DNA from: a virus
IMG/VR virus record: IMGVR_UViG_3300025671_008664
Span: 1 to 20,388 of that record
Strand: one strand, 5' to 3'
DNA: 20,388 nucleotides
Below, in pieces: positions 16,513 to 17,064 of this stretch (position 1 is the first letter of the stretch; every line of letters begins with the position of its first letter). The position numbers and the translations under genes are program-made. The notes beneath the pieces were generated by a model. That model ran no database searches. It was not told the DNA's origin and saw nothing but the letters and a program-made list of their open reading frames with translations.

Positions 16513-16520
16513 TATAAATA
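16513..16520 (+). promoter_or_regulatory. T4-type late promoter, perfect TATAAATA
   Basis: TATAAATA matches the T4 late consensus exactly. The start of transcription is expected around 16526-16528, only a few bases before the first arm of the structured leader. The late promoter therefore drives a transcript with a leader of about 118 bases ahead of the beta-barrel gene. Confidence 0.85.
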
Positions 16521-16525
16521 TAAAG

Positions 16526-16644
16526 AACAACGGTTCCGACGCCTCAACTACTCGCTGAGGAACCGTGGCGTCTATTACAACGAAGGCATGTCGAGCCTTC
16601 TATCATCCGCAGGTAATCTCTGCGAGAAAATAAGGTAAACTAAA
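16526..16644 (+). ncRNA. Structured 5' leader with two competing pairings (possible pseudoknot or switch)
   Basis: Pairing A joins ACGGTTCC (16530-16537) to GGAACCGT (16559-16566), 8 bp. Pairing B joins GACGCC (16538-16543) to GGCGTC (16567-16572), 6 bp. Both enclose TCA/TGA (16544-16546 with 16556-16558). The four arms run A, B, A', B' without spacer, so they make a pseudoknot or, more likely with zero linkers, mutually exclusive hairpins. Two further hairpins follow: GAAGGC/GCCTTC (16582-16600) and CGCAG/CTGCG (16608-16624). The start codon is at 16645. It may belong to the known wcaG motif described for cyanophages, which I cannot test here. Confidence 0.7.
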
Positions 16645-17016
16645 ATGATCAAATCTGTATTCGCAGCTCTGGCTGCTGCCCCTCTCTTCGCTGGCGCTGC
16701 TTTCGCAGGTCCCTACGTTAATGTAGAAGCGAACTCTGGTTTCACTGGTGACGACTACACCGGCACCACCACCGATTTCCATGTTGGCTACGAAGGTACC
16801 AACGAAGCTGGAACCGCTGGTTACTACATCCAGGGTGGCCCTTCACTGGTTACTCCTGATGGTGCTGAGTCTGACACCGTTTTCTCCGCTAAGGTCGGCG
16901 GTTCGGTTGCTGCTACCGATAACCTCTCCGTTTACGGTGAGTTCAGTGTAGCTACCGGCGCCAACGGTGCTGACAACGGTTACGGAACCAAGGCTGGCGT
17001 TAAGTACAGCTTCTGA
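16645..17016 (+). CDS. Small outer-membrane beta-barrel (porin-like) protein
   Basis: The 123-residue protein has a classic signal peptide: basic start MIKSV, hydrophobic AALAAAPLFAGA, and an AFA cleavage site after residue 21. The mature part alternates polar and hydrophobic residues with frequent Gly, Tyr and Thr (YVNVEANSG, DFHVGYEG, GYYIQGGPSL, FSAKVGGSVA, LSVYGEFSV) and ends GVKYSF. The last Phe with alternate hydrophobics is the BAM assembly signal. The number of strands would be about 6 to 8, like OmpX-type proteins. Codon use is GC-richer (acc, ggt, gct, tac, ttc) than the sugar block, in line with high expression. Export to the host outer membrane is the expected fate. Proteins of this type occur in marine cyanobacteria and phages. 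Confidence 0.8.
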   Translation: MIKSVFAALAAAPLFAGAAFAGPYVNVEANSGFTGDDYTGTTTDFHVGYEGTNEAGTAGYYIQGGPSLVTPDGAESDTVFSAKVGGSVAATDNLSVYGEFSVATGANGADNGYGTKAGVKYSF

Positions 17017-17036
17017 TAACATCTGTGTTATAATTG

Positions 17037-17064
17037 GGGGACACTTCGGTGTCCCCTTTTTTTT
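17037..17064 (+). terminator. Strong intrinsic terminator with UUCG loop
   Basis: GGGGACAC (17037-17044), the loop TTCG (17045-17048) and GTGTCCCC (17049-17056) form a perfect 8-bp stem. Eight T residues follow (17057-17064). It closes the beta-barrel transcript. Confidence 0.95.

Follow-up and report, generated by a model that had tools for sequence, protein, structure and literature searches.

A conserved leader RNA that probably controls an outer-membrane protein gene in viruses of ocean cyanobacteria

Marine cyanobacteria subject their porin mRNAs to post-transcriptional control by Yfr1, whose own site is a CU-rich sequence (ACUCCUCACAC). Structured RNAs have also been reported from the phages of cyanobacteria, among them the wcaG, manA, and PhotoRC-II motifs (PMC2864571). 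Representatives of the wcaG motif (RF01761) are structured leader RNAs of T4-like cyanophages, and they are associated with exopolysaccharide or light-induced genes. In cyanophage S-PM2d, the psbA gene is served by a late promoter and carries a hairpin in its 5′ UTR that has been suggested to affect mRNA stability (PMC5931967). In the T4-type phages T4 and RB69, the operator of gene 43 is a leader hairpin whose loop bases are recognized by a protein, and T4 genes such as e have a leader hairpin that is present or absent depending on whether the transcript is of the early or the late stage (PMC3014915).

The RNA described here is none of the three named cyanophage motifs. It occupies positions 16526 to 16644 of a 20,388-nucleotide stretch of viral DNA (IMG/VR record IMGVR_UViG_3300025671_008664, hereafter the window) and, like its promoter, its gene, and the terminator that follows, it is encoded on the plus strand. 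A sequence-only reading of this DNA, made without database searches, had proposed a structured leader with several hairpins behind a perfect late promoter, and this proposal is supported by the present analysis. The T4-type late promoter TATAAATA is located at 16513 to 16520 and is the sole exact copy within the window, where 0.35 copies are expected. By analogy with T4 spacing, transcription is expected to begin near 16526, and the position of the leader about 6 bases downstream from the promoter sequence thus refers to a predicted start only. The promoter is followed by arms A, B, A′, and B′, then by hairpin 2, hairpin 3, a Shine-Dalgarno-like AAGG read from the sequence (16632 to 16635, 9 bases 5′ of the ATG), and the ATG at 16645. 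The four arms lie in this order between 16530 and 16572 with zero linkers and offer pairings of 8 bp (A/A′, the outer stem of hairpin 1) and 6 bp (B/B′), as originally noted, and the two further hairpins expected before the start codon are found at 16582 to 16600 and 16608 to 16624.

Much of this layout recurs in homologous leaders, which were compared across ten isolates and 80 IMG/VR loci selected by protein. Of 102 distinct leaders, 84 have an upstream sequence resembling a late promoter (TATAAATA, ACTAAATA, TCTAAATA, or ATAAATA), and in those 84 the first paired base falls, on median, at the predicted +1 position (offset 0). Many homologues have ACGAGGUAU in the place of AAGG. The z-score of the window leader itself is -2.04 (minimum free energy, -31.8 kcal/mol), with 5 of 200 shuffled sequences folding equally well. 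Because this energy only modestly exceeds that of shuffled sequences, the case for the leader rests on its homologues. In these comparisons, stem A and both downstream hairpins (2 and 3) far exceed what chance would give, and there is no such support for the B/B′ pairing.

The occurrence of a glycan operon and of an authentic wcaG RNA in the same phage could suggest that the leader belongs or is related to the wcaG family, as had been proposed. We consider there to be almost no chance that this is correct. The authentic wcaG RNA (1047 to 1144, 94.3 bits) lies 15 kb from the leader, and within 16526 to 16644 cmscan reports nothing for RF01761 at E≤1, so that the gathering score of 42 bits is not reached there; the leaders of 20 other loci likewise lack a match. 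The two RNAs have different hairpins, consensus sequences, and layouts, and the gene controlled here would be an outer-membrane (OM) barrel of family PF24653, in contrast to the exopolysaccharide or high-light genes typical of wcaG. Membership is therefore refuted at the level of both sequence and structure model. The alternative offered in the same reading, an undescribed RNA, has fared better. When run against Rfam 15 in a permissive E-value mode, the leaders of the window and of the 20 other loci match no family, and the same searches do recover wcaG (in the window and in cyanophage contig L194), abiF, and tRNAs. We also found the leader described nowhere in the open-licence papers searched. 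Judged from these sequence comparisons, it appears to be a control element new to Rfam 15 and to that literature.

Several observations concern the recovered RNAs themselves. Eight bases after the authentic wcaG RNA, and before a gene at 1214, is a terminator-like hairpin with a T tract (1153 to 1178), and the combined layout (1047 to 1178) reads as expected for a transcription-attenuation riboswitch. A sigma-70-like promoter, TTGACA-17-TATCAT (1161 to 1189, 11/12), overlaps this hairpin. Directly before the wcaG RNA is a degenerate wcaG-like copy (950 to 1044) that scores 31 bits against a gathering score of 42, and the two copies possibly form a tandem arrangement. Three carriers of hairpin 1 (phages or contigs) have abiF RNA matches near tRNA arrays, at L125 3398 to 3434, L383 1165 to 1201, and L130 5398 to 5434. 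Contig L194, which also carries hairpin 1, has a cyanobacterial tmRNA-like match beside a tRNA array (88 to 294; 50 bits, gathering score 70), for which ARAGORN makes no tmRNA call.

The strongest covariation in the leader is found in hairpins 2 and 3, where it exceeds that of hairpin 1. Hairpin 2 (16582 to 16600) has the stem GAAGGC/GCCTTC and the loop AUGUCGA, and double changes are observed at all six of its pairs among 81 distinct sequences. Its loop mostly contains GUCGA, usually as NNGUCGA, and elsewhere is a short loop such as ACAA, GAAA, or GUAA. Hairpin 3 (16608 to 16624; stem 16608 to 16613/16619 to 16624) is bounded by the conserved flanks CAUC and AG[A/U]AA. Its pairing is retained in 99.4% of cells, with compensatory changes from UA to CG in 17 sequences, from CG to UA in 25, and from GC to AU in 17. 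For the two hairpins together, 91.6% of cells are paired, double-change cells number 222 versus 64.7±9.5 after shuffling, and the covariation score is 0.592 versus at most 0.164 when the structure is slid along the alignment. This 81-sequence alignment was fitted to the structure of R1, our model of hairpins 2 and 3, and the same double changes in hairpin 3 are seen in an unfitted MAFFT alignment. Among 61 distinct leaders selected by protein alone, a GUCGA or GUCGG loop is present in hairpin 2 of 54, and hairpin 3 is present in 60; the single exception (L054) is a regular-expression match in unrelated sequence.

Model R1 matches the window at 16574 to 16637 (68.7 bits, E 8e-17), a score to be read with the knowledge that the window sequence is itself in the model. 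Of 22 whole phage genomes, 17 have an R1 match, once each and, according to the genome annotations, always just upstream of the start of the PF24653 gene, hereafter Phage_OMP; these include Prochlorococcus phages P-SSM7 and MED4-213. The five genomes that lack a match are those of two podoviruses, two phages included because of their porins, and ACG-2014f, which carries a distant copy of the Phage_OMP gene. We propose to define the Phage_OMP leader by hairpins 2 and 3 with their CAUC and AG flanks directly before the PF24653 start codon, and this is the arrangement found in the window.

Because hairpins 2 and 3 are compact, covary, keep certain loop and flank nucleotides fixed, and stand beside a ribosome-binding site, they might be taken for a riboswitch that binds a metabolite. 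We regard this as unlikely. In the 22 genomes, hairpins 2 and 3 are confined to one phage gene family, the Phage_OMP barrels, and never precede metabolic genes. In addition, short loops resembling tetraloops can stand in for the loop of hairpin 2, and we see neither a terminator nor a partner that would sequester the Shine-Dalgarno sequence.

Hairpin 1 (16530 to 16566) is built differently from what was originally recognized. Its outer stem is formed by arm A (ACGGTTCC, 16530 to 16537) and arm A′ (GGAACCGT, 16559 to 16566). Within this 8-bp stem are an internal loop, which is 3×3 in the window (16538 to 16540/16556 to 16558), two GC/GC pairs (16541 to 16542/16554 to 16555), and a conserved 11-nt loop, CUCAACUACUC (16543 to 16553). 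The sequence-only reading had overlooked this loop and the GC/GC pairs that close it. On the strength of the sequence comparisons, the conserved core of hairpin 1 is the loop with its GC/GC pairs and the covarying outer stem, rather than A/A′ alone. Few loop variants are observed, and they conform to C[UG]CAA[CUA]UA[CAU]U[CU]. The internal loop is paired in some leaders, as GACGC/GCGUC in L005 and as GAUCC/GGAUC in L048.

Support for hairpin 1 comes from a gap-free alignment of 49 sequences, in which its covariation score is 0.359 versus 0.161±0.019 for shuffled versions and at most 0.216 for slid ones. When the arms are exchanged between sequences, the pairing score falls from 9.83 for native arms to 5.53±0.44. 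The model of this hairpin, R2, assigns 43.8 bits to the window, whose sequence is again included in the model. Loci obtained from a 15-mer scan carry the hairpin 1 loop by construction, and protein-selected loci and isolates do not. Among the 61 distinct protein-selected leaders, the loop is present in 30, and nearly all leaders that lack hairpin 1 have another first hairpin. The absence of hairpin 1 from about half of these leaders means that its loop is not essential for a Phage_OMP gene.

Many leaders have a sigma-70-like promoter that abuts hairpin 1 or shares bases with it, and promoter constraint could explain part of the conservation of the hairpin in those cases. Since its 3′ arm often extends into, or lies right beside, the -35 or -10 element, hairpin 1 might even be a palindrome bound as DNA, either an operator or an upstream part of the promoter. 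Such a DNA element would not be expected to show a fixed loop and a stem that varies freely yet stays paired, which is the logic of RNA. Moreover, in compact leaders (those of the window, L001, L015, and L027) hairpin 1 follows a late promoter and no evident sigma-70-like promoter follows it, so the caveat of promoter constraint does not apply to them. We judge the DNA reading to be quite unlikely, and continue to treat hairpin 1 as an RNA structure.

The order of arms A, B, A′, and B′ had originally suggested a two-state switch or a pseudoknot. Arm B (GACGCC, 16538 to 16543) can pair with B′ (GGCGTC, 16567 to 16572) as an alternative to hairpin 1. In a switch of this kind, the A fold would leave the ribosome-binding site free, and the B fold would release the 5′ arm GGUUCC to pair with the Shine-Dalgarno region and shut off translation, with a ligand, temperature, or a protein selecting between them. 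The energy model does allow for this. The two folds are nearly isoenergetic in the window RNA (-31.8 kcal/mol for A and -31.7 kcal/mol when B is constrained, with P near 0.66 for A and 0.32 for B at 37°C), at 20°C they are close to equally populated, and GGUUCC, once released in the B fold, is predicted to pair with the ribosome-binding region. Because of these nearly equal energies, a switch private to this lineage is possible.

The homologues, however, provide no sign of a conserved switch or pseudoknot. Among 54 hairpin-1 sequences, only that of the window has a perfect B′ within about 35 nt, and the other 53 have none. Sequences with swapped parts yield at least one perfect B′ in 3.4% of trials, a frequency that must be read in light of the window having been picked because it has B′. 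Homologues thus keep one stem only: the A-type pairing is retained with covariation, and the B/B′ pairing is specific to the window. The other carriers of GACGCC in IMG/VR belong to one close family and use GACGC as the inner stem of hairpin 1 itself, paired with GCGTC. Near-degenerate folds are common for 119-nt RNAs in energy models, and folds of successive transcript prefixes indicate that A would form first during transcription, because A′ is made before B′. We therefore hold a regulatory A/B switch to be very unlikely; most likely, the B/B′ pairing is due to chance or is a private feature of the window phage.

The distribution of hairpin 1 reaches beyond the Phage_OMP gene. Model R2 gives nine solid matches in whole genomes, all before OM β-barrel genes, of which eight are Phage_OMP and one is a porin. 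The latter is in isolate S-SRM01, where hairpin 1 precedes an SLH/OprB porin gene that is unrelated to Phage_OMP. Isolates S-H25, S-RSM4, and S-RIM8 carry hairpin 1 as well. The same porin is encoded behind hairpin 1 in IMG/VR contigs L125 and L156, and L116 has the same porin-type leader on a contig that ends within the first codons. The gene-free 15-mer scan returned mostly Phage_OMP leaders, together with three porin leaders. Hairpin 1 is therefore common to two unrelated families of OM barrels. Because the porin leaders have hairpin 1 in the absence of hairpin 3, a pairing between the hairpin 1 loop and the 3′ flank of hairpin 3 (CUCGC/GCGAG in the window) was judged by eye to be unlikely.

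This association might mean that phages use hairpin 1 as an RNA tag for OM-protein messages, with a single factor acting in trans that binds its fixed CUCAACUACUC loop and controls, protects, or localizes the mRNAs during infection. We advance this idea tentatively, as it is the less probable outcome. The resemblance of hairpin 1 to the gene 43 operator is a lead only: the CAAC sequence in most hairpin 1 loops equals a SELEX variant of the UAAC of that operator (PMC3014915). Hairpin 1 differs in having a longer loop of 11 nt and in occurring once per genome at OM-protein genes. All solid hairpin 1 matches in whole phage genomes are located at such genes and none at gene 43, and the two elements are accordingly not considered identical. 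Yfr1 also acts on mRNAs for OM barrels in the same hosts, and its site ACUCCUCACAC is not complementary to the hairpin 1 loop.

A search for a partner or host counterpart gave results at the level of chance. Perfect complements of the hairpin 1 loop in phage genomes do not exceed chance level, and no partner was found among them. The matches listed for the exact 15-mer across all bacterial genomes are chance matches. Within 386 genomes of the cyanobacterial phylum, the 15-mer occurs at four places versus three for a reversed control, and the flanks of these four places are unlike the leader. Neither the loop complement nor R1 has a match in 30 small genomes labeled as cyanobacterial; these also lack Yfr1 and thus are unlikely to be picocyanobacteria, and both results from them are set aside.

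The gene behind the leader (16645 to 17016) encodes a 123-amino-acid protein that matches Pfam PF24653, "cyanophage outer membrane protein like beta barrel" (E 2.6e-50), and PHROG 417 (phrog_417); annotations list the protein as gp222, DUF680, or PhCOG173. An AlphaFold2 model (pLDDT 80.7) consists of a signal peptide followed by six strands, and its best structural neighbors are the OmpX and OprF barrels (TM 0.58 to 0.63), at E-values that are not significant. The earlier assignment of a surface β-barrel is supported. Because the gene is followed by an intrinsic terminator-like hairpin with a T tract (17036 to 17057), it looks like a one-gene transcription unit. Relatives are found in 448 phage records, and 387 show a match in nucleotide sequence, which in the best ones runs on into the leader; matches very near the genome of the window itself are hidden by the collections searched. 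A conserved three-hairpin leader, located before an OM-protein gene in every case, is probably common to hundreds of viruses of ocean cyanobacteria.

Two annotated phages call for separate comment. In P-SSM7, the annotated start of Phage_OMP overlaps the conserved hairpin 3 (L326 2902 to 2926); translation probably begins later than annotated, at the ATG located 24 bases further on. In ACG-2014d (L388 1001 to 2369), roughly 1 kb separates the Phage_OMP gene from DNA polymerase gene 43 on its downstream side; in many other phages, the Phage_OMP gene is instead adjacent to nrdC.

The reading that we prefer, with reasonable though far from complete confidence, is that of a conserved cis-acting structured 5′ leader of a late mRNA for an OM β-barrel, with roles in 5′-end protection, loop recognition, and ribosome access. 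Sequence comparison shows the layout, in which a late promoter is followed by a hairpin at or near the first base, by hairpins 2 and 3, and by the ribosome-binding site; the RNA is established comparatively, and we infer the mechanism. The first hairpin would protect the 5′ end of the late mRNA. The A fold would be the working state of hairpin 1, and its CUCAACUACUC loop may be recognized by a factor acting in trans, either a protein or a small RNA. Hairpins 2 and 3, which end about 8 bases before the Shine-Dalgarno sequence, may set the access of ribosomes, perhaps through a bound protein.

Many leaders have a sigma-70-like promoter between hairpins 1 and 2. An early transcript from this promoter is predicted to start near hairpin 2 without hairpin 1, and early and late messages would then differ in their leaders. 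For T4 genes such as e, it is the late promoter that removes an inhibitory hairpin, whereas here the late transcript would gain the first hairpin and the sigma-70 transcript would lack it. The psbA gene of S-PM2d is likened to this arrangement by description, as another cyanophage gene with a late promoter and a 5′ UTR hairpin, but that hairpin is a single 36-bp inverted repeat from one phage (PMC5931967).

The leader probably controls the phage-encoded OM protein, and it is a structured RNA of wide occurrence among sequenced cyanophages that was apparently missed by Rfam 15 and by the literature searched. A protein of the Phage_OMP type has been detected by virion proteomics of S-SZBM1 (PMC9146016), and the phage OM-protein gene was broken repeatedly during cyanophage adaptation to Synechococcus WH8102 (PMC6224464). 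Its regulation may therefore bear on host adaptation. Furthermore, the hairpin 1 loop links two unrelated families of OM proteins, and the presence of one RNA loop at both makes the regulation of the host surface by phages late in infection directly testable.
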